Assembly: GCA_030539395.1 (NCBI GenBank)
Contig: JAUNSC010000026.1
Span: 1 to 50,605 of the forward strand
Reading direction: 5' to 3'
DNA from: Eubacteriales bacterium
Lineage (GTDB): Bacteria > Bacillota > Clostridia > Lachnospirales > Lachnospiraceae
DNA: 50,605 nt
Shown here: in pieces, positions 4,082 through 50,605 of the stretch
How positions within the stretch are numbered: the first letter of the stretch is position 1
Layout of the letters: every line of letters starts with the position of its first letter
Program-made: the position numbers and the translations under genes
The notes under the pieces: model-generated
Told to the model about the DNA's origin: nothing
What the model saw: the letters and a program-made list of their open reading frames with translations, nothing else
Databases searched by the model: none

Positions 4082-4119
4082 AAACAGGGAGGCGGCATAA
4101 CAGCCGGTCTCCCTGTTTT
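4082..4119 (+). terminator. Hairpin between binding-protein and permease genes
   Basis: AAACAGGGAG pairs with CTCCCTGTTT (10 bp, loop of 17 bases) and ends in four T residues. It lies inside the operon, 20 bases after the binding-protein stop, so it is probably a partial terminator or mRNA-stabilising hairpin. Confidence 0.7.
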
Positions 4120-4136
4120 ATAAAAGGAGTGAAACT

Positions 4137-5045
4137 ATGAAAAAGGGTGGATATTTTCAAAAAAAGAAATTAACGTTTTTTGCATTTGTATTGCCGGGAG
4201 CGGTCTTTATGGCAGTTATGATTATTTATCCTATCATTTACAATATTGTTATGAGCTTTAAAGATGTAAATATTATGAACTTTGCTACGGGAGACAGTAA
4301 ATTTATTGGCCTGAGCATGTATAAGGACATCCTCCACGACAAGGTGACATGGATTGCCATAAAAAATACGCTGCTATTTACAGTATGGTGTCTGCTGTTT
4401 CAGTTCCCAATCGGATTTGCGATGGCTCTGTTTTTCAGCAAAAGATTTAAACTGGCACCAACCCTCAGAGGAATCAATGTTATTGCATGGATGATCCCCA
4501 TGGTGGCAGTAGCGGGTGTATTCAAATATATGTTTAACAGTGATGTGGGGATTGTCAACAGAATTCTTATGGGCCTTCATTTGATCTCATCACCGGTAGA
4601 ATGGCTGGCCCATGGGAATACGGCACTGGCAGCCATTGTTGTTGCCAACATATGGAAAGGGGTACCTTTCAATATGATTCTTTTAGCAACTGCGTTAACA
4701 ACACTGCCTGCAGATATTTATGAATCCGCCAGCATTGACGGCGCAAATAAATTCCAGCAGTTCTTTTTGCTTACGGTGCCGCTGTTAAAACCGGCAATAA
4801 TTTCCGTTCTGACGCTTGGATTTATCTATACATTTAAAGTATTTGATCTGGTCTATGTAATGACCGGAGGCGGACCGGGATCAGCTACCGAAATGCTTTC
4901 TACTCTGGCATACAGATATTCTTTTGCCGAGTACAATTTTTCTCAGGGAGCAGCCATTGCAAATGTATTATTTGTGCTGTTAATGATTGTTGGATTTTTC
5001 TATATCCATATTACATTAAAAGAAGATAAGGAGGATGTGGGATGA
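4137..5045 (+). CDS. Sugar ABC transporter permease (MalF/UgpA type)
   Basis: Inner-membrane permease of the CUT1 importer, 302 residues with about six hydrophobic segments; the first lies at residues 14-36. The EAA loop that contacts the ATPase is visible as ESASIDGANKFQQFFLLTVP, matching the EAA-G pattern. It is translated after the intergenic hairpin from AAAGGAG upstream of the ATG. It overlaps the next permease by four bases (ATGA), implying coupled translation. No ATP-binding subunit is encoded nearby, so the transporter probably borrows a shared MsmX-like ATPase, as many Firmicute CUT1 systems do. Confidence 0.92.
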   Translation: MKKGGYFQKKKLTFFAFVLPGAVFMAVMIIYPIIYNIVMSFKDVNIMNFATGDSKFIGLSMYKDILHDKVTWIAIKNTLLFTVWCLLFQFPIGFAMALFFSKRFKLAPTLRGINVIAWMIPMVAVAGVFKYMFNSDVGIVNRILMGLHLISSPVEWLAHGNTALAAIVVANIWKGVPFNMILLATALTTLPADIYESASIDGANKFQQFFLLTVPLLKPAIISVLTLGFIYTFKVFDLVYVMTGGGPGSATEMLSTLAYRYSFAEYNFSQGAAIANVLFVLLMIVGFFYIHITLKEDKEDVG

Positions 5046-5887
5046 AAAAGAAAACAAGACTGACAGACAAGCAGAGGTCAATCTGCTTAAGCATTACAGG
5101 TGTGATAATTACGGTGCTGTTTTTGTTTCCATTATACTGGATGGTAACGACGGCCCTTCGGCAGCCGGGAGAAACTTTTATAAATCCCACCTTCTTTCCC
5201 AGAAGTATTTCGATTGAAGCTTTTAAGATGGAGAGCGCCAACGGAGTCGGATTTTTGACATATTTAAAGAACAGTATTGTTATTTCGGCAGGAGCGACTG
5301 CACTTGGCATAATTCTTGCGGTTCCGGCTTCCTATGGACTGGCTAGATTCAGGAGTAAATTTGTTGGAGTCATGCTGTTTGTTTTTCTGGTAGCACAGAT
5401 GCTTCCGAGCTCTCTTATTCTGACACCATTGTTTATTAATTTTAAAAATGTGGGACTGATAAACAATTTATTGGGAGTAATTTTGGCAGATGCGACTCTG
5501 ACGATACCGTTTTCGGTAATTATCCTGAGAACCTATTTTAAGGACATTCCCAAAGAACTGGAAGAAGCAGCAATTATAGACGGATGCGGTGCCTGGAAAA
5601 CATTTACAAAGATCATGCTGCCGATCAGCTATCCGGGAATTGCAACAGCAATATCGATGTCACTGTTTATGTCCTGGGGCGATATGGTATTCTCCCTTAC
5701 TTTCTTAAATAAGGAGAATTTAAAACCGTTAGCGTTGATTCTTTATAAGGCCATGAGTGAATTGGGAGTGAGATGGGAGATTCTGATGGCATATTCCACA
5801 ATTGTTATCATTCCCATTGTAATTGTATTCATTTTTATGCAGAAGTATATTGTGTCCGGATTAACGGCCGGCTCTGTGAAGGGATAA
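5042..5887 (+). CDS. Sugar ABC transporter permease (MalG/UgpE type)
   Basis: Second permease of the CUT1 importer, 281 residues. It has an N-terminal helix (about residues 15-35), five further membrane segments and the EAA loop EEAAIIDGCGAWKTFTKIMLP. The ending, GSVKG, is typical of MalG-type partners. It begins inside the stop of the preceding permease (ATGA overlap; GGAGG just upstream). The two are expected to form a heterodimeric channel, energised by an ATPase encoded elsewhere. It is followed 62 bases later by the first GH31 gene, with no terminator seen between them. Confidence 0.92.
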   Translation: MKKKTRLTDKQRSICLSITGVIITVLFLFPLYWMVTTALRQPGETFINPTFFPRSISIEAFKMESANGVGFLTYLKNSIVISAGATALGIILAVPASYGLARFRSKFVGVMLFVFLVAQMLPSSLILTPLFINFKNVGLINNLLGVILADATLTIPFSVIILRTYFKDIPKELEEAAIIDGCGAWKTFTKIMLPISYPGIATAISMSLFMSWGDMVFSLTFLNKENLKPLALILYKAMSELGVRWEILMAYSTIVIIPIVIVFIFMQKYIVSGLTAGSVKG

Positions 5888-7992: not shown

Positions 7993-10033
7993 AAAAAATG
8001 GTGCATTAATACGCCGTTTTGACAAAGAACTGCTTCAGATTGAACCATATGGAGAAGACAGTCTTCGCATACGGGCCACCCAGCTGTCTGAATTTCAGAA
8101 ACGTGAAACAGGTGCTTTGCTGCCTGTTTCACAGACAGCGGGCAGCATTGTATCGATAGACGGTGATACCGGATTTATTCAAAATGGAAATATTCGATGT
8201 GAAGTGCTTTGTACGGGGAAGTTAAAATTTTATAACAGGAGCGGAAAGCTGCTTCTGGAAGAAGTACATAAGGACCGCAACGGTCCTGTATCACCTGGAG
8301 AGCCGGAAAGCGCACTGGAGCTTCGGCCAAGGGCCTTCCGGCCTCACAGAGAGACGGACCGGTTTAAGCTGACCGTCCGTTTCGAGGCGAAAGAGGATGA
8401 GAAATTTTACGGAATGGGACAGTATTCTTCTATCCCGTTCTTAAATCTCAAGGGCTGTATGCTGGAATTGGCCCAGAGAAATTCCCAGATTTCGATTCCG
8501 TTTACGGTATCGAGCCGCGGCTATGGCTTCCTCTGGAACAATCCGGCAATAGGAAAGGCTGTATTTGGGAGGAATATCACGGAGTGGACGGCAGACTCCA
8601 CTGCTCAGATGGATTACTGGATTACTGCCGGAGATGTTCCGCAGCAGATTATGGAGAGGTATGCGGAAGTGACCGGAAAAGTGCCGCAAATGCCGGCATA
8701 TGGCACAGGATTGTGGCAGAGCAAGCTCCGCTACCGCACACAGAAAGAGGTACTGGAAGTCGCAGAAGAATATAAAAAGCGGGGACTTCCTCTGTCTGTT
8801 ATCGTAATTGACTTTTTCCATTGGACAGCCCAGGGCGACTGGAAATTCGATCCTGAGTTATGGCCGGACCCGGAAGGAATGGTTCGGAAACTTCGGGATA
8901 TGGGAATCGAACTGATGGTATCCATCTGGCCGACCGTGGAGACCGGAAGTGAAAATTTTGCTCATATGGAAGAGATGGGATATCTCATCCGTACAGAAGC
9001 AGGCCCGCATATCGGCATTAAAAATCAGGATACGTATTTTGATGCAACCAATCCTCAGGCCCGTGAATTTGTATGGCAGAAAATAAAAGAACATTATTAT
9101 GACCAGGGAATCCGGCTTTTCTGGCTGGACGAGTGTGAACCGGAAGTGACCCGGTATGAATACGAAAATTATCGTTTCTGGCTGGGAACACATAAGGAAA
9201 CAGGGAATATCTATCCCAGAGAAGTGTCAAAGATGGTGTATGAAGGAAGAGCGGCGCAGGGAGAGACGGAAATTGTAAGTCTTACACGCTGTGCCTGGGC
9301 CGGATCGCAGCGGTATGGCGCCCTGGTATGGACGGGAGATATTGCTTCAAATTTTGAGAGCCTGCGAAATCAGATTGCTGCAGGATTAAATATGGGACTG
9401 TCAGGAATGCCCTGGTGGACTACGGACATAGGCGGCTTTCACGGCGGAGATGTGCGCTCTGAGGATTTTAGAGAGTGTCTGGTGCGCTGGTTCCAGTTTG
9501 CAACCTTTATCCCTGTTTTGAGAATGCATGGATTTCGGGAACCAAAGGTTATCTCGGAACCGGACAGGACATTTATAGCAGGAAATGCAGAAAGCTGGAA
9601 GTATACCAGCGGTTCGCCAAATGAATTGTGGTCTTTTGGGGAAGAAAATTATGAAATCATGAAATCCTTTCTGGAAATCAGAGAATGTTTGCGCCCGTAT
9701 ATTGACAGTCTTATGACGCAGGCGCATGAGAAGGGAACTCCGTTGATGCGTCCGTACTTCTATGAATATCCCGATGATCCCGGAGCCTGGGAAATTGAGG
9801 ATGCATATCTTTTTGGCCCGGATATTCTGGTAGCTCCTGTTGTGAAAGAACATTGTTTCGAGAGGGAGGTATACCTTCCGGCAGGAGAGTGGCATAATAT
9901 TTTTACAGGGGAAAAGACAGAGGGCGGACGAACCGTTCTTTGTAAAGCACCCATAGAACAGATCCCTGTTTTTGTACATAAAAATATTCTGAAATACCTG
10001 AATGGGGAGAAAAGGCGCAATACCAGCGAATAA
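7982..10033 (+). CDS. GH31 alpha-glycosidase, second copy
   Basis: Second GH31 enzyme, 683 residues from the ATG at 7982. An upstream in-frame ATG at 7937 would lie well inside the previous gene. I chose 7982 because GGAGGAA precedes it and MLYEKNG matches the family N-terminus. It overlaps the first GH31 gene by 11 bases. The nucleophile is D383 (WLDECEPE) and the acid/base is D453 (WTGDIASN); WWTTDIGGF and RMHGFRE are also present. Relative to the first copy it has an insertion after the RMHGFR segment (about VISEPDRTFIAGNAESW). Two similar but clearly diverged paralogues in one operon suggest complementary activities on one oligosaccharide, or on two linkages. Cytoplasmic, with no signal peptide. 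Confidence 0.93.
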   Translation: MLYEKNGALIRRFDKELLQIEPYGEDSLRIRATQLSEFQKRETGALLPVSQTAGSIVSIDGDTGFIQNGNIRCEVLCTGKLKFYNRSGKLLLEEVHKDRNGPVSPGEPESALELRPRAFRPHRETDRFKLTVRFEAKEDEKFYGMGQYSSIPFLNLKGCMLELAQRNSQISIPFTVSSRGYGFLWNNPAIGKAVFGRNITEWTADSTAQMDYWITAGDVPQQIMERYAEVTGKVPQMPAYGTGLWQSKLRYRTQKEVLEVAEEYKKRGLPLSVIVIDFFHWTAQGDWKFDPELWPDPEGMVRKLRDMGIELMVSIWPTVETGSENFAHMEEMGYLIRTEAGPHIGIKNQDTYFDATNPQAREFVWQKIKEHYYDQGIRLFWLDECEPEVTRYEYENYRFWLGTHKETGNIYPREVSKMVYEGRAAQGETEIVSLTRCAWAGSQRYGALVWTGDIASNFESLRNQIAAGLNMGLSGMPWWTTDIGGFHGGDVRSEDFRECLVRWFQFATFIPVLRMHGFREPKVISEPDRTFIAGNAESWKYTSGSPNELWSFGEENYEIMKSFLEIRECLRPYIDSLMTQAHEKGTPLMRPYFYEYPDDPGAWEIEDAYLFGPDILVAPVVKEHCFEREVYLPAGEWHNIFTGEKTEGGRTVLCKAPIEQIPVFVHKNILKYLNGEKRRNTSE

Positions 10034-10051
10034 TGAGCGAGGTTATGGCTT

Positions 10052-10432
10052 ATGAAAATAGTAAAACAGATTGGGCTGATCTTCAGCATTTATCTTGGCT
10101 CTGAGATAATAAGTAAACTGCTGCCGTTTTCACTGCCGGGAAGTGTGATTAGCCTGGTGGTGATAGCTGTGCTGCTGGCAACAAACAGGATGAAGGAAGA
10201 AGACATCCGGGAAACGGCGGATTTTCTGTTGAAAATTATGGCAATGCTGTTTGTGCCGGCAGGAATTGGAGTAGTAGAAGATTTTTCCAGTGTCCAGGGC
10301 CAGCTGTGGAAAATAATTTTTATCGTTATTGCTGCACTGATTATTACATTTCTTGGATCTTATTTAGTGGCATCACTGGTTCAGAAAATAGCGGAGAGGA
10401 GGAAACGGAAATATGGAAACCATATGGAGTAA
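10052..10432 (+). CDS. CidA/LrgA family membrane protein
   Basis: Small membrane protein of 126 residues with four predicted helices (about 5-25, 28-45, 60-80, 88-112). A highly basic tail (ERRKRKYG) follows. The opening YLGSEIISKLLPFSLPGSVISLVV matches the CidA/LrgA signature, in which a Leu-Pro-Gly-Ser turn separates the first two helices. The family is described as holin-like and, in LrgAB, as involved in murein-hydrolase control or in export of small metabolites such as pyruvate. It overlaps the LrgB-like gene by 20 bases. Its place at the end of the sugar operon favours a role in overflow-metabolite transport, which is an inference. Confidence 0.88.
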   Translation: MKIVKQIGLIFSIYLGSEIISKLLPFSLPGSVISLVVIAVLLATNRMKEEDIRETADFLLKIMAMLFVPAGIGVVEDFSSVQGQLWKIIFIVIAALIITFLGSYLVASLVQKIAERRKRKYGNHME

Positions 10433-11090
10433 TATGTTGTTTGGTATCATCCTCACAATACTTACCTATCAGGCCGGTATATGGATTAATCAGAAAGTGA
10501 AATCACCATTGGCTAATCCGCTGCTTCTTTCGATTATTTTTTGCGTTATTATCATGAAGCTGCTGCATATCAGCTATGATGATTATATGGAGGGCGGCAG
10601 AGTCATCAACATGCTGATCGGTCCTGCTACGGCGGTGATCGGACTGTCCGTATTCCGCCAACGCAAAGTTCTGCAAAAGGAGTTTGTGCCAATTATTGCA
10701 GGCAGTCTCGGAGCATGTATCTGTTCCATGGGAAGCGTATGGATTCTGGGAAATCTTCTTGGACTGGATAAAACGATGACCGTATCCATGTTCCCTAAAT
10801 CGGTTACGACCGCAATTGCATTGGATGTTTCGGTTCAGTTAAATGGAATGAAGGCAATTACATTAATGGCAGTGATTATGACGGGAGTCCTCGGCTCTGT
10901 TATCTGTCCGGCCCTGGTCAGGCTGCTGCATCTGAAAGATCCTGTTGCAACAGGGGTCGCCATGGGCTCTACAAGCCATGCTGCAGGCACGGCCCGTGCT
11001 ATGGAAATGGGAGAAATACAGGGAGCTGTGAGCGGAGTGTGTATTGGAGTTGCAGGACTTTTGACTGCTCTGATAGCAGTGTTTCTGTAA
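10413..11090 (+). CDS. LrgB family membrane protein
   Basis: Polytopic membrane protein of 225 residues with about six to seven helices. It shows LrgB family signatures: PLANPLLLSII near the N-terminus, MLIGPATAVIGL, MFPKSVTTAIALDVS, and GSTSHAAGTARAMEMGE near the C-terminus. Translation starts within the preceding LrgA-like gene, using AGGAGGAAACGG as ribosome binding site. LrgA and LrgB usually work together. The pair ends the operon, followed by a long hairpin at 11111-11160. Confidence 0.92.
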   Translation: METIWSNMLFGIILTILTYQAGIWINQKVKSPLANPLLLSIIFCVIIMKLLHISYDDYMEGGRVINMLIGPATAVIGLSVFRQRKVLQKEFVPIIAGSLGACICSMGSVWILGNLLGLDKTMTVSMFPKSVTTAIALDVSVQLNGMKAITLMAVIMTGVLGSVICPALVRLLHLKDPVATGVAMGSTSHAAGTARAMEMGEIQGAVSGVCIGVAGLLTALIAVFL

Positions 11091-35973: not shown

Positions 35974-37827
35974 ATGGCAACAGATCAGAAAATAGAAAAT
36001 CTTTTAAATCTTGCACTGGATGCCACACCCCGGGAGCGTGAAAAATCTCTGACATTAGATGTTGGATTTGATGAACGCAGCAGGGAATGGGATTTGATTG
36101 TAAAGTATTCCGGAAGTCTGGAGAGATTTCGCGAGCAGGGTATCCGGATAGCGGAACTTGCAGGTGGATATGCAATTATCACTATCTCGCAGTCATTGAT
36201 TCCATACCTGGCATCTCAGCCGGAAATAGAATATATTGAAAAACCAAAGAGGCTGTTTTTTTCTGCGCGGCAGGGAAGAACAGCCTCTTGTATGGATACG
36301 CTGCAGATTACGGATAGAGTTGGACTTCCGCCGACAGTGCCGGGGCGGATACCGGAGGGGACGCAGAGGGCTCTGCTTGGGCAGGGAATTTTAATAGCTG
36401 TCATCGATTCAGGAGTAGATTACACCCATCTGGATTTTCGAAATCCTGACGGAAGCACACGCATTCTGGCTATTTGGGATCAGAGCATTCAGGGAAATCC
36501 GCCTGATGGTTATACACTTGGTACAGAATATACAAAGGCACAGATCGATGAGGCACTGCGTAGTGACGTGCTTTTGCCGATTCGGGACATCAGCGGGCAC
36601 GGGACAGAGGTTCTTGGGATTGCTGCCGGAAACGGAAGGGCATCCCTGCGGGGAAGCCGGTTTTCAGGACAGCCGGAGGCGGAGAGACCGGAGGGCAGTA
36701 CTCCAGGTCAATATGAATTTGGCCCGGATCGGGGAGTGGCGCCTCTGGCGCATATTTTGGTGGTAAAACTGGGAACTCCTTCAGAAGGAGGTTTTCCCCG
36801 GACAACGGAACTGATGCAGGCGCTTGATTATACCTTCCGAAAGGCTCAGGAATTGCAGCTTCCGGTGGCTGTTAATCTGAGTTTTGGAAACGTGTATGGG
36901 CCGCATGACGGAACAGGTCTTCTGGAGACATACCTGGGAGAACTGGCAAATCGCTGGAAGTCGATTGTCTGCATCGGCACAGGAAATGAGGGAAATACGG
37001 CAGGACACACTTCAGGAGTGCTGCAGCAGGGAAACGTCCGGGAAGTGGAACTGGGGGTGGCGCCTTTTGAGACTTCCATCAATGTCCAGCTTTGGAAATC
37101 ATATGCGGATCGTTTTGAAGTTTCTCTGGTACATCCCGGCGGTCAGAGAATCGGCCCGCTGACACAGAATCTGGGGCCGCAGCGTTTTCGTGCCGGCAAT
37201 ACGGAATTGCTGGTCTATTACGGAGAACCAGGTCCATTCAGTATTTCTCAGGAGATATATATAGATTTCCTGCCGCAGGAGGAATATATTGACAATGGTA
37301 TCTGGCGGATCGTTCTGACTCCGCAGAAAATTGTAAATGGCAGATTTGATATGTGGCTTCCTCAGAAAGAAACATTGAATTCAGGAACACTTTTTTATGA
37401 GCCGAGTGTAGAAAATACGTTGACGATACCGTCTACTGCAAGAAATATTATTGCGGTGGGGGCCTATGATTCCCGCAGTTTGAAGTATGCACCGTTTTCA
37501 GGCAGAGGCAATCAGACACCGCAGCCCATGCTTACTGGTCTTTTCCCTGTAAAGCCGGATCTGGCAGCCCCAGGTGTGAACATCCGTACTACGGCTGTGG
37601 GCGGCGGTTATACCACTGTCACAGGAACTTCCTTTGCCACACCCTTTGTCACGGGCGCGTCTGCCATGCTGATGCAGTGGGGGATTATAAACGGAAATGA
37701 TCCGTATCTTTACGGGGAGAAGGTGAGGGCGTATCTGCAGAGAGGGGCGCGGGCATTGCCGGGAAATATGCAATATCCGAATAATGAGGTGGGATATGGG
37801 GAGGACGTTATAATAAGGTTACATTGA
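35974..37827 (+). CDS. S8 subtilisin-like serine peptidase (Csp-like)
   Basis: Peptidase of 617 residues with an intact triad: D145 (IAVIDSGVDYTHLDF), H209 (DISGHGTEVLGIAAG) and S553 (TGTSFATPFVTGAS), and oxyanion N338 in GTGNEGN. An N-terminal segment of about 100 residues (EIEYIEKPKRLFF) resembles a prodomain. There is no signal peptide. Architecture and length match the CspA/B/C-type subtilases of Clostridia, some of which activate spore germination by cleaving SleC. Whether this copy is a germination protease or another of the several S8 paralogues common in Lachnospiraceae cannot be told. It ends the clearly chromosomal part of the window. A small AAAGAA/TTCTTT dyad lies just before GAGGAG. 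Confidence 0.9.
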   Translation: MATDQKIENLLNLALDATPREREKSLTLDVGFDERSREWDLIVKYSGSLERFREQGIRIAELAGGYAIITISQSLIPYLASQPEIEYIEKPKRLFFSARQGRTASCMDTLQITDRVGLPPTVPGRIPEGTQRALLGQGILIAVIDSGVDYTHLDFRNPDGSTRILAIWDQSIQGNPPDGYTLGTEYTKAQIDEALRSDVLLPIRDISGHGTEVLGIAAGNGRASLRGSRFSGQPEAERPEGSTPGQYEFGPDRGVAPLAHILVVKLGTPSEGGFPRTTELMQALDYTFRKAQELQLPVAVNLSFGNVYGPHDGTGLLETYLGELANRWKSIVCIGTGNEGNTAGHTSGVLQQGNVREVELGVAPFETSINVQLWKSYADRFEVSLVHPGGQRIGPLTQNLGPQRFRAGNTELLVYYGEPGPFSISQEIYIDFLPQEEYIDNGIWRIVLTPQKIVNGRFDMWLPQKETLNSGTLFYEPSVENTLTIPSTARNIIAVGAYDSRSLKYAPFSGRGNQTPQPMLTGLFPVKPDLAAPGVNIRTTAVGGGYTTVTGTSFATPFVTGASAMLMQWGIINGNDPYLYGEKVRAYLQRGARALPGNMQYPNNEVGYGEDVIIRLH

Positions 37828-44123: not shown

Positions 44124-45800
44124 ATGAAGCAAAATCAATGGAAGGAGTCATGCACATACGATGCTGCATTATATCTTCGATTGTCGAGAGACGATGAAGA
44201 TATTGATGGAAGTGCCAAGACGGAAAGTAACAGCATCAGTAGTCAGCGGGAATTACTTCGGAACTTTGTAAAGAGTCAAACGGATATCCAAATTTTTGAC
44301 ATTTATGTAGATGACGGTTACTCAGGAAGTAATTTTGACCGACCTGAATTTAAACGAATGACAACAGATATTGAATCAGGGAAAGTGAATTGTGTAATTG
44401 TAAAAGACTTATCCAGATTCGGAAGAGAGTATATAGAAGCCGGGCGATTTATTCAAAAAATCTACCCGGCTTTAAATGTGCGCTTTATTGCGGTTACTGA
44501 TCATTTTGACAGCAAGACGGCAAATACTTCTGAAAAATCTCTCGTGGTTCCTATTAAGAATTTTGTGAATGATAGTTATTGTCGGGATATTTCTACCAAG
44601 GTAAGAAGTCATCAGCAGATGAAACGGGAAAATGGAGAATTTATCGGAGCATTTGCTCCTTATGGTTACCAGAAAGATATACAGAATAAAAACTGCCTTG
44701 TAGTTGATGAATATGCGGCAAATGTGATCCGAAAAATCTATGTGTGGAAAATTGAAGGATTAAGTCTGGGGGCAATCGCTGAAAAGCTGAATACACGTCA
44801 TATATTACCGCCGAAAGAGTATAAAAAGTCATTGGGAGAAAACTATAATTCCGGATTTCAGAGCACAGAATTTCCAAAATGGTCTGCTGTACAGATTAAG
44901 CGTATTCTCACGAATGAGGTTTATATTGGAAATATGGTACAGGGAAAACAGGAACGTATCAGCTACAAAGTGAAAAAACGTCTGAATAAGCCGGAAGATG
45001 AATGGGTAAGGGTCGAGAATACACATCCGGCAGTTATTCGCCAGAGTGATTTTGATATTGTGCAGAAACTTCTTCAATATGATGGAAGAGCTTCAAAATC
45101 ATCGGAAGGGCCAAATTTATTTTCTGGTTTTCTTTTCTGTGGAGATTGTAAGACACCCATGATTCGGAGAGTGAATCAGTATAAGGAAAAGAAAAAAGCT
45201 TTTTATATTTGTCAGACAAAAAATAAAGGTGGAAATTGTACCAGACACAGCATTCCAGAAGAGACACTGAAAATCATTGTATTGAAAGAGATTCAGATGT
45301 ATTCTTCCCTCTTTATGAATTATCAAATGATAATGGAAGAAATGAAAGAGATGGAAATTGGATATGATCAGGTCATTCACTATGATACGCAGATCAGCCG
45401 CCTGCAGGAAGAATACAATAAGTGTTACGCACTAAGGGTGTCGTTGTATGATGACTTGAAAGCCGGAATTATCAGCAAAGAAGAATTTCAGGAATTCCGT
45501 GATATTTATGGTAAGAAATGTGAAGAACTGGAAATGATGATTGAAAATCAGAAGCAGATGGTAAAACAGATGTTTGAAGATGGTGTTGCTGCTACCATTC
45601 AGCTGGAGGAGTGGAAAAAATCGTTAGAGCTGAAAAAATTAGACCGGATGCTTCTGGCACTGGCGATAGATAAAATCTATGTATATGAAAACAAACGGAT
45701 TATGATTGTACTTCGTTATCAGGATAGGATAGAGAAGATGAAAGTGATTAAGAACTTTTTTGAAGAACAGCAGACCGATAAAGGGAAAGGGGTTGGATAA
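44124..45800 (+). CDS. Large serine recombinase, first of three
   Basis: Large serine recombinase of 558 residues. Resolvase domain with nucleophile S21 in LYLRLSRDDED and the R-rich active-site helix in VKDLSRFGREYIEAG. Then comes a recombinase domain (SLGAIAEKLNTRHILPPKEY, IKRILTNEVYIGNMVQGKQ), a zinc ribbon (CGDC ... YICQ ... C) near residues 340-375, and a coiled-coil at about 415-490. It catalyses site-specific DNA exchange between att-type sites. It ends with TAA directly against the ATG of the second recombinase. Triplets of such genes are known in some integrative elements of streptococci and Clostridia. Confidence 0.93.
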   Translation: MKQNQWKESCTYDAALYLRLSRDDEDIDGSAKTESNSISSQRELLRNFVKSQTDIQIFDIYVDDGYSGSNFDRPEFKRMTTDIESGKVNCVIVKDLSRFGREYIEAGRFIQKIYPALNVRFIAVTDHFDSKTANTSEKSLVVPIKNFVNDSYCRDISTKVRSHQQMKRENGEFIGAFAPYGYQKDIQNKNCLVVDEYAANVIRKIYVWKIEGLSLGAIAEKLNTRHILPPKEYKKSLGENYNSGFQSTEFPKWSAVQIKRILTNEVYIGNMVQGKQERISYKVKKRLNKPEDEWVRVENTHPAVIRQSDFDIVQKLLQYDGRASKSSEGPNLFSGFLFCGDCKTPMIRRVNQYKEKKKAFYICQTKNKGGNCTRHSIPEETLKIIVLKEIQMYSSLFMNYQMIMEEMKEMEIGYDQVIHYDTQISRLQEEYNKCYALRVSLYDDLKAGIISKEEFQEFRDIYGKKCEELEMMIENQKQMVKQMFEDGVAATIQLEEWKKSLELKKLDRMLLALAIDKIYVYENKRIMIVLRYQDRIEKMKVIKNFFEEQQTDKGKGVG

Positions 45801-47453
45801 ATGGCAAGAACAGCAAAACGATATCTGAATGGACAAAAGTTGGAATACTCACGGTTGTCAGTCTATAAAACAGCTATTTATGCCAGATTATCCGTGGATC
45901 ATGATGATAAAAAATCAGAATCGATTGAAACACAGGTGGAAATGTTGAAAGAATTTATCCGGCATCAGAATGAAAATGCCGGCAGGAATTCAGAATTTGT
46001 GCTGTATGATGTCTATACAGATCTTGGAAAAACGGGGACAAATTTCGAAAGACCTGGTTTTGAAAGGTTGATGAGTGATATTCGTGCAGGACAAATTAAC
46101 TGTATTATTGTCAAAGATTTTTCCAGATTTGGAAGAAACTATATTGAAACTGGAGATTATCTGGAGAAGATATTTCCGTTTTTGAAAGTACGGTTTATTT
46201 CTGTGTGTGATCATTATGATTCTTTTTCAAAAGATGCTGACAGTCAGGAATTATCTATGAATATTAAAAATTTGGTTAATGATGCATATGCAAAAGATAT
46301 TTCGGCAAAATGCTGTGCTTCCAAACGGGCTTGCCAAAAGAATGGGAGTTATGTAGGAGGTATGGCTCCTTATGGATATCATTCTGTAAATGATAACGGA
46401 ATCCGAAAACTTGTCATTGATCCGGAAGCTGCAGAAATTGTGCGAAGAATATTTGAACAATATATAGACGGTCTGCCTATCAATCAGATTATTGACGGGC
46501 TTTTTGAGAATGGTGTTCATCGCATATCCGATTATAACCGATATCATCATGTGTATTGCCAGGATGGAGAAGCGCTTCATCAGTGGGGAAATTCTTCTAT
46601 CCGGGCTGTGCTTACCAAAAATAATTATTATGGAGATTTGGTACAGCATAAGTATAAATCTCGGTTTTCCAGAGGAGAGAAATGGTGTGGGCTTCTGGAT
46701 GAAAGGGAGTGGATTATCACTCCCGAAGCGCATGATCCGATCATTAGCAGAGATATATTTGATGAGGCCCAGATTCGGCTAAAGGCTGCGAAAGAAGCAA
46801 GAAGCTATGTTGGATGGGATGAAAATGACAGGGCGTTCTATAATGTATTTTACTGTGGTGATTGCGGGAGAAAAATGACAACATGCAGAACCAGAGGGTA
46901 TGTGGAGTATTTTTGTCAGGCAAATCGTTATAGAGATGAAAGAAAATGCCGGACAAAGAATATTTCCGAAGACAAATTGCAAAAAATTGTCCGTTCCGAG
47001 CTTTCAAGGCAGTTGCAGTTTTTGAAAATAAAGAAAAAGGATATGACAGCAATCAGCAGATTATTTCTGGAAGACCAGCTTGCTATTATTCGCAAAGAGC
47101 TGGATAAAATGGAAACGGATTATCAGAAGATATCGGATCAATCGGTTCAGAGTTTTCTGATGTATAAGGAAGGAAAGGTTTCTTTACAAGCATACCTTGA
47201 TACCAAAAAAGAACGCAGCGACTGGGAAGCATTTTTCCAAGAACGAAGAAAGACGTTGGAACAGAAAATGCGTATGCTGCAGAAACAGCAGAACGAAGAG
47301 GCGAAATTCCTTAGAAGTCTATTGGAACTGGAAGGAACTTCCCGATTGAACGTTGAACTGGTTGAAACATTGATAGATCGCATCTCGCTGTATGGAGATG
47401 GACATTTGGAAATTGTTTTCAAATTTCAGGGGGTGATGGCAGATGACAGATAA
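45801..47453 (+). CDS. Large serine recombinase, second of three
   Basis: Serine recombinase of 550 residues, distinct from its neighbours. An N-terminal extension of about 20 residues precedes the nucleophile S31 (IYARLSVDHDD). Active-site helix is IIVKDFSRFGRNYIETG. Recombinase domain contains GLPINQIIDGLFENGVHRI and SIRAVLTKNNYYGDLV. The zinc ribbon is CGDCGRKM ... YFCQ ... C, and a coiled-coil follows near 400-480. It begins at the base after the stop of the first recombinase and overlaps the third by 11 bases, so the three are translated as a unit. All catalytic residues I can check are present. Confidence 0.93.
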   Translation: MARTAKRYLNGQKLEYSRLSVYKTAIYARLSVDHDDKKSESIETQVEMLKEFIRHQNENAGRNSEFVLYDVYTDLGKTGTNFERPGFERLMSDIRAGQINCIIVKDFSRFGRNYIETGDYLEKIFPFLKVRFISVCDHYDSFSKDADSQELSMNIKNLVNDAYAKDISAKCCASKRACQKNGSYVGGMAPYGYHSVNDNGIRKLVIDPEAAEIVRRIFEQYIDGLPINQIIDGLFENGVHRISDYNRYHHVYCQDGEALHQWGNSSIRAVLTKNNYYGDLVQHKYKSRFSRGEKWCGLLDEREWIITPEAHDPIISRDIFDEAQIRLKAAKEARSYVGWDENDRAFYNVFYCGDCGRKMTTCRTRGYVEYFCQANRYRDERKCRTKNISEDKLQKIVRSELSRQLQFLKIKKKDMTAISRLFLEDQLAIIRKELDKMETDYQKISDQSVQSFLMYKEGKVSLQAYLDTKKERSDWEAFFQERRKTLEQKMRMLQKQQNEEAKFLRSLLELEGTSRLNVELVETLIDRISLYGDGHLEIVFKFQGVMADDR

Positions 47454-49005
47454 TAGATTGCTTGTCGGGTATTACCGTCTTTCTATGGAAGATGATACAA
47501 ACAATGAAAGTAATAGCATCACAAATCAGAGACTGTTAATTAAAGATTACATTTCAGCGATTCCGGAATTGGCGGACATACCTTATCAGGAATTTTATGA
47601 TGATGGATATTCCGGTGCCAGTATGGAACGACCTGCGATGCAGCAGGTACTGCAGCTTGTCAGGCAAAACCGGGTGCAGTGTATTGTGGTAAAGGATTTT
47701 TCGAGATTTTCCAGAAATTATATTGAAATGGGAACGTATCTGGAACAAGTTTTCCCATTTATGGGCATCCGTTTTATTTCCGTTTCGGATCATTACGATT
47801 CTCTGGACTATAGAGGGAAAAGCTCTGATATTGAAGTCCAGTTCAAAGGGCTGATTGCAGATTTTTATGTAAAAGATCAGTCGGTAAAAGTGAAAGCCGC
47901 AGTCAGTACCAGAAGAAATCTGGGAGAATACTGCTGTGGCTCTGCCCCATATGGTTACCGGAGAAATCCAGATGATAAGACAAAACTTCAAATTGTAGAG
48001 GAGGAAGCGGCGGTAATACGGAAAGTATTTGAATTGACAAATCAACGTTATTCCAAAACAGAAATTTGTCGGATTTTTAATGCGGAAAGTATTCCTACAC
48101 CGCTTCAGTCTATGAGCAGCCGCCAGAAAGTGGATCGCCGGAAAGCGGCATCGAAAGACCTTCAGTGGACGGTTGATATGGTCAGGAAAATCATTAATGA
48201 TAAAAACTATATTGGATGCATGGTTTACGGAAAAACGAAGATTCCGGATCCGGGAACCGGAAAGGAAGTTCCCATTCCCAAAGATCAGTGGAAAGTGCTG
48301 GAAAACCATCATGAACCAATTGTATCAAAAGAAGAATTTGAGAAAGCCCAGAGTCTTCAACTGCGCCATTCCAGAAAAAGTAAATTTGATAAGAGTACTT
48401 CTCTTCTCAGTGGATTCCTGAAATGCGGAAACTGTGGAAGAAATCTTTCCGGAAGCAAGAAACAGCATGGACATATTCTATATAGTTGTGCATACAGCAA
48501 AGGGAAAGAAGATACAGACTGTTTTGCCGGAAAAGCAGATAACAAAATTCTGGAGGGCTTTATCCTGAATGAAATAAAAGCGCATTTACAAGAAATGATC
48601 AGCCAGGAACAGATGGATGCTTCCATGCGAAAGCGGCATCAGAACCTGATAAAGGAATATCAGAGTGAAATCACTGATTGTGCAGAAAAACGGGAACAGC
48701 TCAAAAGACAACACCGACAGAATTATGAAAAGTATCATGAAGGTGAATTGGATCAAAAGCAGTTTCAGGATGCCAGAGGGCAGGTAGAACTGGCAAATGA
48801 ACAGTTACAGAAACGAATTCAGGAATTAGAAGCTCTTGTAAGAATGGAAGAAGAAATCCTGTTGAAAAAGAACCTTCCGGTGGAACAGATGATGGAATAT
48901 CTTGGGTATGAGAAGCTGACACGGGAGATGTTGGAGGAGTATGTGGAAGGGGTGTATGTGTATGATGATGGGAGGATTGAGATTATATGGGAACTTTCCT
49001 TATAA
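47443..49005 (+). CDS. Large serine recombinase, third of three
   Basis: Serine recombinase of 520 residues. Nucleophile S14 is in YYRLSMEDD, preceding NSITNQRLLIKDYI; the active-site helix is VVKDFSRFSRNYIEMG. The recombinase domain (SKTEICRIFNAESIPTPLQS, VRKIINDKNYIGCMVYGKT) is followed by a zinc ribbon CGNCGRNLSGSKK ... YSCAYS ... C and a coiled-coil near 385-460. It overlaps the second recombinase gene by 11 bases. The ORF is intact. The integrase genes of such elements usually lie near one end, so the element boundary may be just downstream, near 49010-49140. Confidence 0.93.
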   Translation: MTDNRLLVGYYRLSMEDDTNNESNSITNQRLLIKDYISAIPELADIPYQEFYDDGYSGASMERPAMQQVLQLVRQNRVQCIVVKDFSRFSRNYIEMGTYLEQVFPFMGIRFISVSDHYDSLDYRGKSSDIEVQFKGLIADFYVKDQSVKVKAAVSTRRNLGEYCCGSAPYGYRRNPDDKTKLQIVEEEAAVIRKVFELTNQRYSKTEICRIFNAESIPTPLQSMSSRQKVDRRKAASKDLQWTVDMVRKIINDKNYIGCMVYGKTKIPDPGTGKEVPIPKDQWKVLENHHEPIVSKEEFEKAQSLQLRHSRKSKFDKSTSLLSGFLKCGNCGRNLSGSKKQHGHILYSCAYSKGKEDTDCFAGKADNKILEGFILNEIKAHLQEMISQEQMDASMRKRHQNLIKEYQSEITDCAEKREQLKRQHRQNYEKYHEGELDQKQFQDARGQVELANEQLQKRIQELEALVRMEEEILLKKNLPVEQMMEYLGYEKLTREMLEEYVEGVYVYDDGRIEIIWELSL

Positions 49006-49119
49006 AGCACAAAATATAATTTAGAATTTATATTAACTTGAAATTTTAGCATCACAATGGAGCGGGCAGTGAAATTAAAACAATTTCCAAATTTTTTAAA
49101 AATAAGGTGTGAATGTTGA

Positions 49120-49149
49120 TTGAATATAGAGGAGCAAACATGGTATAAT
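49120..49149 (+). promoter_or_regulatory. Promoter of the IrrE/cyclase-like operon
   Basis: TTGAAT (49120-49125), an 18-bp spacer and a perfect TATAAT (49144-49149), about 40 bases ahead of the first gene. So the pair has its own promoter rather than depending on the recombinase transcript. Confidence 0.65.
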
Positions 49150-49187
49150 ATATAAAAATTCGTCATTTGAGAGAAGGAAGTGATAAA

Positions 49188-49700
49188 ATGGATAATTCGA
49201 CTAAAAGAATGATTAATTCATTAGCGGAGGATATTCTAAATATATACAATATTCCTGTACCGATTCAAGATATTGGCGAAATTGTGGAAAAATTAGGTGG
49301 TACTATACAAAGAGAGGTTTCTTTTTCAGATGGTACAGTTGAAAAGAATGGAGAGGGATTTAGAATAATATTATCACCTTTTCAAGATGAGAAGCGGGAG
49401 CGCTTCACGATTGCACACGAGTTGGGTCATCTGTTTCTCCATATGGGATATAGGACAAATGAAAAACTATGGGAAAGACAGAGCAATAATATTTACCATC
49501 GAATAGGGAACTCTGAAAAAGAATATCAAGCTAATGAATTTGCAGCTGCTTTTTTGATGCCTGCAGATAAATATCTTGAGGTCCTTAAGGATTTAGCGGT
49601 GGATGATATGGTAGATACATCTGAAATAGCAGAATTTTTTAATGTGTCGGTTGAAGCTGCATCTAACAGAGGGAAGTTTTTGGGGTACTTAAGATGGTAG
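49188..49700 (+). CDS. ImmA/IrrE-family zinc metallopeptidase
   Basis: Protein of 170 residues with the M78-type zinc site H77-E78-x-x-H81 (FTIAHELGHLFLHMGY), continuing to E117 in NEFAAAFLMPADKY, which is the usual third-ligand region. ATG 49188 has AGAAGGAAGTGA upstream; the frame opens at 49167 but without a site. Related proteins cleave repressors to induce mobile elements (ImmA) or stress genes (IrrE). There is no HTH domain here, so any target regulator must be separate. Its stop overlaps the next gene by seven bases, implying that the two act together. AT-rich compared with the recombinases. Confidence 0.88.
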   Translation: MDNSTKRMINSLAEDILNIYNIPVPIQDIGEIVEKLGGTIQREVSFSDGTVEKNGEGFRIILSPFQDEKRERFTIAHELGHLFLHMGYRTNEKLWERQSNNIYHRIGNSEKEYQANEFAAAFLMPADKYLEVLKDLAVDDMVDTSEIAEFFNVSVEAASNRGKFLGYLRW

Positions 49701-50578
49701 AGGAAAAGCAAGCATTAGGTAAGTATAGTAAACTAATTGAGGACTTAAATGAGGAAAGAGAAGATATAATAGCTCGACGTAGTGTTGAGCTATTCTTCTC
49801 TTTTGATATTGTAAATTCATCTGCTTATAAAACTATAAATTATACAGGTTGGTATAAAGTAATTATTTCTCTCTTTAAAAAAATACAGGGAAACGTTACG
49901 AAATTGATGCCAGGGGCAGAGATGTGGAGGGTTTTGGGAGATGAGATAGTTTTTATTATTCCAATAAAAGAAAATAAGGATTTTTTTGTATATACTGATA
50001 AGATATTTGAAATTCTTAACAATTTTGTATATCAGTTAAATGAGGGAACATTTTTTGATGATTTACAAGTTACAGATGATGAAAAGTCATTGATGAAAAT
50101 GCAAAAAATTATTTCTTTAAAAGCAGCGGCATGGATTGCCATTGTTGGAGAAGGAATTGAAAAGTTAGAACAATATGATAATTTACTGGAAAGGTATAAA
50201 TTAAGAGAAGGATATGGACTTATAGAGTTCTTGGGAAATGATATTGATGCAGGATTTAGAATAAAAAAAGAGACGCAGAATAGGCGTATGGTTATAAGTT
50301 TTGAACTGGCATATATTTTGGCTAAAGATACTGATTATATAAATAATATAAATATTATTACATATAAATCACTTAAAGGGATTTGGCAAAACAGGTTATA
50401 TCCAATTATTTGGTATCATGATCCTAAATATGTCGGAAATGTACGATTTGAAGAAAGCTTTTTTTATGATGAAAAAGAAGGTAATTCTTTAGTCGAAGAA
50501 TATTTTTCCAATAGAGTTGATCCTGAGTTAAAAATAGAGATGTATAAAAATGGTAAGCGCTTAATTTTCAGCCGTTGA
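49694..50578 (+). CDS. Putative class III nucleotide-cyclase-like protein
   Basis: Protein of 294 residues, which I do not find named in the families I know, but motif order matches class III adenylate/guanylate cyclases. FFSFDIVNSSAYK (D38) corresponds to the first metal-binding Asp strand. MWRVLGDEIVFIIP (D83) corresponds to the second Asp hairpin. KAAAWIAIVGEG corresponds to the strand before the dimer arm. LIEFLGNDIDAGFRIKKETQNRRMVISFELAYIL fits the yxGxxVNxAxR and vSxel segments. Asn of the transition-state pair is Asp here (D185), while Arg is kept (R189). The C-terminal 80 residues (WYHDPKYVGNVRFEESFFYDEKEG) are unassigned. It is translationally coupled to the IrrE-type protease. Possible role: a second-messenger synthase of a defence or stress system, comparable to Pycsar. 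This is inference from motifs. Confidence 0.6.
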   Translation: MVEEKQALGKYSKLIEDLNEEREDIIARRSVELFFSFDIVNSSAYKTINYTGWYKVIISLFKKIQGNVTKLMPGAEMWRVLGDEIVFIIPIKENKDFFVYTDKIFEILNNFVYQLNEGTFFDDLQVTDDEKSLMKMQKIISLKAAAWIAIVGEGIEKLEQYDNLLERYKLREGYGLIEFLGNDIDAGFRIKKETQNRRMVISFELAYILAKDTDYINNINIITYKSLKGIWQNRLYPIIWYHDPKYVGNVRFEESFFYDEKEGNSLVEEYFSNRVDPELKIEMYKNGKRLIFSR

Positions 50579-50605
50579 CAGAAAAATACCCGGCTACTTT
50601 TCAGT
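50565..50605. mobile_element. Possible insertion-sequence end at the window edge
   Basis: TTTTCAG occurs at 50565-50571 and 50598-50604, 33 bp apart, with TTGACA after the first copy and an intervening CCGGCTAC segment. Multiple short terminal repeats of this sort are typical of IS21-family ends. The cyclase stop codon lies inside the TTGACA. Only 41 bases are visible, so this is tentative. Confidence 0.3.

Follow-up and report, generated by a model that had tools for sequence, protein, structure and literature searches.

The window, by which we mean the whole stretch of 50,605 nucleotides analysed here, is an entire contig (C28) of a 3.37-Mb assembly in 77 contigs. Close to its end, an open reading frame for an M78 protease with the motif HELGH (49188–49700) overlaps by 7 bases a second one for a cyclase-like protein (49694–50578), an arrangement that the original prediction had described and that we confirm. 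The features referred to below are as follows.

44124–49005, + strand: three tandem large serine recombinases of 558, 550 and 520 aa, with Resolvase, Recombinase and Zn_ribbon_recom in each (context)
49120–49149, + strand: predicted sigma70-like promoter, a consensus match (TTGAAT-18-TATAAT) with an extended -10 (TG before the -10)
49188–49700, + strand: intact M78 (ImmA/IrrE, CapP-like) zinc metallopeptidase of 170 aa with HELGH (Pfam PF06114, Peptidase_M78, 1.2e-21)
49694–50552, + strand: conserved part (residues 1–286) of a class III nucleotide-cyclase-like gene, of which the 3´ half with the Nudix-like domain is missing
49805–49807, + strand: codon of D38, the first metal Asp, in an S-F-D motif, invariant in alignments of 14 and 12 rows
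49940–49942, + strand: codon of D83, the second metal Asp, in a W-R-x-x-G-D-E motif, with GDE in 21 of 21 homologues
50246–50260, + strand: codons D185 to R189 (D-A-G-F-R), Asp replacing the usual Asn, with D-x-G-F-R in 21 of 21 homologues
50553–50605, + strand: end of an IS66-type insertion element, which begins GTAAGCGCTTAATTTTCAG and supplies the last codons and the stop of a 294-aa ORF; the contig stops inside it

The pair had also been credited with its own promoter and with mobile-element neighbours, and both can be seen. The sigma70-like site is one of 7 promoter-like sites in the 501 bases scanned, against 2.8 expected, and the region upstream of the related locus L008 has the same hexamers with the same spacing. 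The three large serine recombinases lie just upstream; their ends overlap or abut, an arrangement that would suit the terminus of a mobile element. Elsewhere in the window, 35974–37827 encodes a subtilase with a CspB-type prodomain.

The window copy of the operon is not complete, a point that the original prediction had missed. The window aligns with L008 at 85.7% DNA identity from 49052 to 50552, where the alignment ends, and the L008 protein is 84% identical. This break coincides exactly with the start of the IS66-type tail at 50553, and the contig ends 53 bases on. Among 298 other genomes in the bacterial family, 12 contain the tail, at 80–90% identity. At L105 an IS66 transposase ORF (DDE_Tnp_IS66, 5.2e-84) is only 36 bases from it, and at L104, by eye, similar ORFs are next to it; at three other carriers, L101–L103, reading 1.5 kb to either side turned up no IS66 transposase. 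The junction opens with GTAAGCG, which we take to be typical of IS66 ends. Because of L105, L104 (judged by eye) and the exact junction, we conclude from the DNA that an IS66-type insertion interrupts the cyclase gene past residue 286 and is itself cut off by the contig end. Elsewhere in the assembly the tail does not recur, and there is no further match to the full-length cyclase, to the L008 membrane effector described below or to the Pfam family PF18967; the missing half and an effector were thus both looked for there without success. The window copy itself is probably dead.

The intact form can be studied in relatives. Twenty-two distinct loci were compared: the window, L005, L008–L017, L027, L049, L076, L077, L106, L107, L108, L109, L110 and L112. 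Duplicates were merged (L002 with L010, L003 with L012, L004 with L015, L075 with L049, L056 with L106, and L113 under L112), as were 23 near-identical C. difficile contigs (L026–L048, under L027) and, by eye, L055 and L078–L081, of the same Leptospira type as L077. L016 was included despite its broken cyclase, and the fragments L050 and L051 (cyclase cut at 183 aa) and L052 (43 residues left) were set aside. The loci come from Lachnospiraceae and other gut Clostridia, from prophages of C. difficile and other hosts and from one MAG (L017). L014, which has all three genes intact, belongs to the commensal Schaedlerella arabinosiphila DSM 106076. The phages phiC2 and phiCD27 (temperate, of C. difficile) and Leptospira phage LE1 carry the genes, as do plasmids of Leptospira, Mycolicibacterium, Tistrella and Sphingomonas. 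Matching records numbered 7 among 50,697 phage and 7 among 72,556 plasmid records. The same plasmid records came back with the distant loci L107 and L108 as queries, and the same phage records with L108, whereas L109 as query returned LE1 alone from the phage collection. A search of the class with the cyclase core found 2 of 391 genomes, the window's own and G801. Two weak matches were dropped by eye: L007 (E 5.2e-4) is a response-regulator/GGDEF-like ORF, and L006 (E 1.8e-4) is without a matching gene.

Several Lachnospiraceae copies adjoin housekeeping genes (ribosomal proteins S10 and L21; SSB and GdpP), not defence islands. At L010, a BrxC/BrxD-like ATPase gene (4094–5284, 1.6e-24) lies just upstream of the protease, and a defence island is possible there; this is also the one full-length Lachnospiraceae-type locus that is without an effector. 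The single-contig genome G801 has two copies of the pair plus effector about 18 kb apart (L112 and L113), with identical search scores. In phiC2 (L053), an ORF annotated as AbiF-like abortive infection (9588–10451) lies between holin and endolysin, near the protease-cyclase-effector cluster. In phage LE1 (L106, 84–2704), the pair is flanked by a gene for a CI-type repressor, which is on the opposite strand, and the annotation calls the protease an immunity-region regulator. Broken cyclase genes occur at L016 (6001–7050), L050 (3054–3605), L051 (1346–1897) and L052 (6001–6129), with the protease whole in all four; queries with the effectors of L009 and L027 found no effector homologue in L050, L051 or L052.

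The two genes belong together. At all but two of the 22 loci (L017 and L107), that is at 20, the gene immediately before the cyclase, on the same strand, encodes an M78 protease, and this protease-first linkage spans the Bacillota, Leptospira, Mycolicibacterium and Tistrella; unlinked genes in most homologues, which would have counted against the original prediction, were thus not what we found. Of 19 intact pairs that were tabulated, 11 have a spacing of -7, and the others range from -3 to +13. Chance adjacency is negligible, since a whole-genome search of the window's own genome gives a single M78 match, the window protease, and any M78 match at all occurs in 40 of 60 related genomes. The partners have also diversified in step, with a Spearman correlation of 0.91 between protease and cyclase pairwise distances (19 pairs), a value that none of 2000 permutations reached.

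The predicted structure of the second protein has the class III nucleotide-cyclase fold that had been proposed for it, with adenylyl and guanylyl cyclases as the best fold matches. PycC structures were not among the best 50 matches listed for each structural comparison, an absence that, by the aligner's notes, excludes nothing. The fold is not exposed by sequence alone: neither Pfam nor NCBIfam assigned the cyclase part to a family, and a cyclase-only profile (A5) had no match among PDB sequences at E up to 10. The whole-length profile (A1) found Nudix proteins alone among PDB sequences and did not reveal the cyclase fold. The landmarks D38, GD83E and D185/R189 are where they had been placed. 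S36 and D38 are invariant in 14 of 14 rows of one alignment (A4) and 12 of 12 of another (A6), putting a Ser two residues before the first metal Asp (S-x-D), and the metal Asp pair, whose loss in homologues would have spoken against a cyclase, is conserved. The Asp that replaces Asn does so in all 21 homologues tabulated and is therefore a feature of the family, not a lesion of the window copy. Four residues before the second Asp, 11 of these homologues have R and 10 have K. A reading of nucleotide specificity from such residues was dropped, as R or K at this position fits the cytidylate cyclase EaPycC and adenylyl cyclases alike.

Relatives of the window type have cyclases of 444–528 aa with a degenerate Nudix-like C-terminal domain, a part for which the Nudix fold was matched. 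The Nudix box (G-x5-E-x7-R-E-U-x-E-E-x-G-U) is not kept. In the 13 sequences counted, which leave out L112 because the search pattern missed it, the first Glu and the Arg are found in none, the Glu after the Arg in 8 and the next Glu in 2, and the last Glu is Asp in all 13. Lacking most of the catalytic box, the domain would bind nucleotide and not cut it. Among 16 cyclases scanned with PADLOC, the Nudix part of all ten full-length ones of this type matches the candidate model PDC-S07. A search of the phylum gave 17 further genomes (18 of 398 with the window's own) that match only positions 251–477 of the 490-position model, its C-terminal part; these are apparently ordinary Nudix proteins and were not taken as homologues.

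The original prediction had suggested that an effector gene might lie just outside the window, and relatives bear this out. At 13 of the 22 loci the pair adjoins a gene of the PycTM/2TM type, encoding 163–192 aa with at least two predicted membrane segments in those examined. Nine lie downstream on the same strand, one upstream on the same strand (L076) and three downstream on the opposite strand (L027, L049 and L112). All 13 match PADLOC models for 2TM effectors or PycTM at 1e-20 or better. The seven scanned with Pfam match PF18967 (E 2.9e-12 to 1.2e-4; L009 and L014 below the curated cut-off), a family found in 4 of 299 genomes of the bacterial family: two belong to window-type systems (G029 and G140) and two to canonical Pycsar (L114 and L115). 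An effector is present at 13 of 15 loci with a Nudix-type cyclase and at 0 of 6 with a short cyclase, loci that are related to one another and do not amount to 21 independent events. The nine loci without an effector beside the pair are the window, which is cut, L010, L017 and the six without the Nudix part. In the sequence available around effector-less loci, no match to an effector profile scored better than E 0.07, against 9e-60 and 3e-63 for the controls L008 and L076. The effector is exchanged between groups: C. difficile and L008 have cyclases that are 54% identical and effectors that are 21% identical, a greater divergence than in the core, as in modular defence systems. Effector and cyclase distances correlate at 0.62 over 12 loci (21 of 2000 permutations); among 8 Lachnospiraceae loci, the correlation with the cyclase is 0.85 for the effector and 0.54 for the protease. 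In intact relatives the operon has the order M78 protease, cyclase with degenerate Nudix domain, PycTM/2TM effector.

Such an operon invites comparison with Pycsar, for which the founding paper is Tal et al. 2021. The cyclic nucleotide of Pycsar is cCMP or cUMP; it switches on a PycTM or PycTIR effector, and the cell stops growing or dies (PMC11224242). The window family has in common with it a class III-like cyclase with two metal Asp and, in the 13 loci above, an adjoining PycTM-type effector; its R or K four residues before the second Asp is matched by an R in EaPycC (PMC11224242). It differs in having S-x-D where the PycCs described in the same paper have an aromatic residue two before the first Asp (F100, F60 and Y50), and in its fused Nudix-like domain and fixed upstream M78 gene. 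PADLOC PycC models gave no match at E up to 1 for the 16 cyclases scanned from the 22 loci (all except those of L005, L010, L011, L015, L016 and L110), and the canonical PycC of L114 and L115, from the same bacterial family, matched as positive controls at 5.2e-82 and 2.6e-24. A profile comparison of the window cyclase family with these two single sequences also found nothing. Pyrimidine specificity is therefore not to be assumed: what the family shares with PycC is a fold and a partner, without recognisable similarity of sequence. L114 (473–1854) and L115 (3–1851) are canonical two-gene Pycsar loci with PycC and PycTM and no protease in the stretch read; L115 has an extra 183-aa ORF between cyclase and effector, without a PADLOC match.

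Members of the family have been noted before in phages. The gp41/gp42 pair of phiC2, orf37/orf38 of phiCD27 and Orf1/Orf2 of LE1 are direct homologues of the window cyclase and protease, and the GenBank notes of phiC2 read ‘DUF955, similar to phage LE1 ORF 2’ and ‘similar to phage LE1 ORF 1’. The Phold paper of 2026 describes the phiC2/phiCD27 protein as structurally like a Pycsar cyclase, at 20% identity and a TM-score of 0.87 (PMC12774648). Neither the phage annotations nor the two passages of that paper considered here propose a function, a link to a protease, a Nudix domain or an effector. Another paper of 2026 states in its introduction that DNA-damage controllers of the CapW/BrxR and CapH+CapP families regulate adjacent immune operons, Pycsar among them (PMC13373217). 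The earlier statement that no described system joins protease and cyclase was accordingly too strong, given these two sources.

We consider it probable, at about 0.68, that what the window carries, a whole first gene and most of a second, is part of a Pycsar-like abortive-infection operon that works by nucleotide signalling and was broken here by an IS66-type insertion. The adjacency of effector and cyclase in three arrangements counts for this reading; the failure to match PycC models, the change of Asn to Asp throughout, the nine loci without an effector, at which the pair may do something else, the absence of the protease from L017 and L107, the housekeeping neighbours of several Lachnospiraceae copies and, among the 8 Lachnospiraceae loci, the lower correlation with the cyclase for the protease than for the effector count against it. 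Carriage by phages and plasmids and the BrxC/BrxD-like neighbour at L010 fit a defence gene. By analogy, we infer the enzymatic activity, product, protease target, trigger and anti-phage effect of a window-type operon as follows. Infection or DNA damage would trigger the M78 protease, which could be the upstream switch, as CapP is switched by ssDNA, and would act on the partner cyclase or on a repressor. The cyclase would then make a cyclic mononucleotide, which would open the membrane effector so that the infected cell is killed or arrested. The Nudix-like domain, binding nucleotide without cutting it, may be a sensor or a brake.

What the protease does is the part of this scheme with the most alternatives. 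Action on the cyclase itself is the role we rate highest, at somewhat below even odds; the cyclase is the first choice of partner because the two genes overlap tightly and co-diversify and because no CapH was found next to them. Cleavage of a repressor is possible at longer odds. That the protease is itself a nucleotide-activated effector, as first suggested, seems unlikely, and the idea has most room where no membrane effector was found (Leptospira, LE1, Mycolicibacterium and Tistrella).

The repressor role is central to a tentative alternative in which control is transcriptional, as in CapH+CapP, and the protease only cleaves a repressor, so that expression of a Pycsar-like pair rises after DNA damage. 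The window protease is, like CapP, an M78 protease and the first gene of an immune-type operon, and capP is its best PADLOC model (2.4e-25, residues 7–161), as it is for all 7 proteases scanned. CapP is reported to be activated by ssDNA and to cleave the repressor CapH, and such controllers reportedly adjoin immune operons, those of Pycsar included (PMC13373217). The strong promoter-like site ahead of the operon would also suit this alternative. However, the capP match is shorter than the model, covering only positions 3–149 of 242, and no CapH-like gene was found adjoining the window pair, which has a serine recombinase upstream and, within it, the cyclase downstream. Among 6 upstream neighbours in relatives, assigned by Pfam, one is a regulator (AraC family, L016); the others are BrxC/D-like, a Gate-domain protein and three without a clear family, and HTH families other than AraC gave no match among these adjoining genes. 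The protease is paired far more tightly with the cyclase, which it overlaps and with which it co-diversifies, than with any regulator.

A different possibility, for which the odds are likewise clearly adverse, is that M78 protease and class III cyclase form a conserved signalling core, spread over Bacillota, spirochaetes, mycobacteria and alphaproteobacteria as well as phages and plasmids, that couples a cyclic mononucleotide directly to regulated proteolysis, with membrane effectors in one branch only; this would be an undescribed immune logic and not Pycsar with an accessory gene. In a further alternative, which we consider doubtful, the pair is a module of its own and no Pycsar variant: the cyclase controls the protease through its product or by binding, or the protease controls the cyclase, the module acts by proteolysis, perhaps of a repressor encoded by a phage or plasmid, and the effector is a later addition in the Bacillota. 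The pair stands without a 2TM/PycTM neighbour in Leptospira (two types), LE1, Mycolicibacterium and Tistrella, the CI-type repressor gene adjoins it on the opposite strand in LE1, and the degraded L016, L050, L051 and L052 keep the whole protease ORF with the cyclase lost. But 13 of the 15 loci of the Nudix-type branch, the window's own, have a membrane effector, and a Pfam scan of the window protease gave no nucleotide-binding domain besides the M78 fold.

It is improbable that these genes are a regulatory or metabolic remnant with an inactive enzyme and no role in defence. The replacement of Asn by Asp in all 21 homologues, the degenerate Nudix box, the rarity of the family, its several broken copies and the housekeeping neighbours of homologues could be so explained, but the metal Asp are invariant, the family is conserved across four phyla and it is linked to membrane effectors. 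We think it very improbable that the operon is a guard like Panoptes (OptS mCpol and OptE S-2TM-beta), in which a constant nucleotide restrains a membrane effector until phage anti-defence proteins release it: both combine a nucleotide synthase with a two-TM effector, with inhibitory logic in Panoptes (PMC12657218), but the window family has a class III cyclase fold, PycTM/2TM-model effectors and a protease, and the isolate locus L016 keeps effector and protease intact beside a broken cyclase, which suggests that the signal activates rather than restrains the effector, in one natural case that could hide other lesions.

The combination of cyclase and membrane effector is already known from Pycsar; the cyclase family, its Nudix fusion and the fixed protease were not found described together in the literature covered, the subscription part of it sparsely. 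If the Pycsar-like reading is true, Pycsar-type immunity gains a cyclase family that is invisible to the PADLOC PycC models, has a protease and a pseudo-Nudix domain built in, and is carried by, among others, the C. difficile phages phiC2 and phiCD27. To our knowledge, how Pycsar senses infection is not settled. A dedicated, operon-linked protease would be a candidate for the infection sensor and the Nudix-like domain for a brake on the nucleotide. Cyclic-nucleotide synthesis and ImmA/IrrE proteolysis, both known modes of control in mobile elements, would here have been joined over long evolutionary time.
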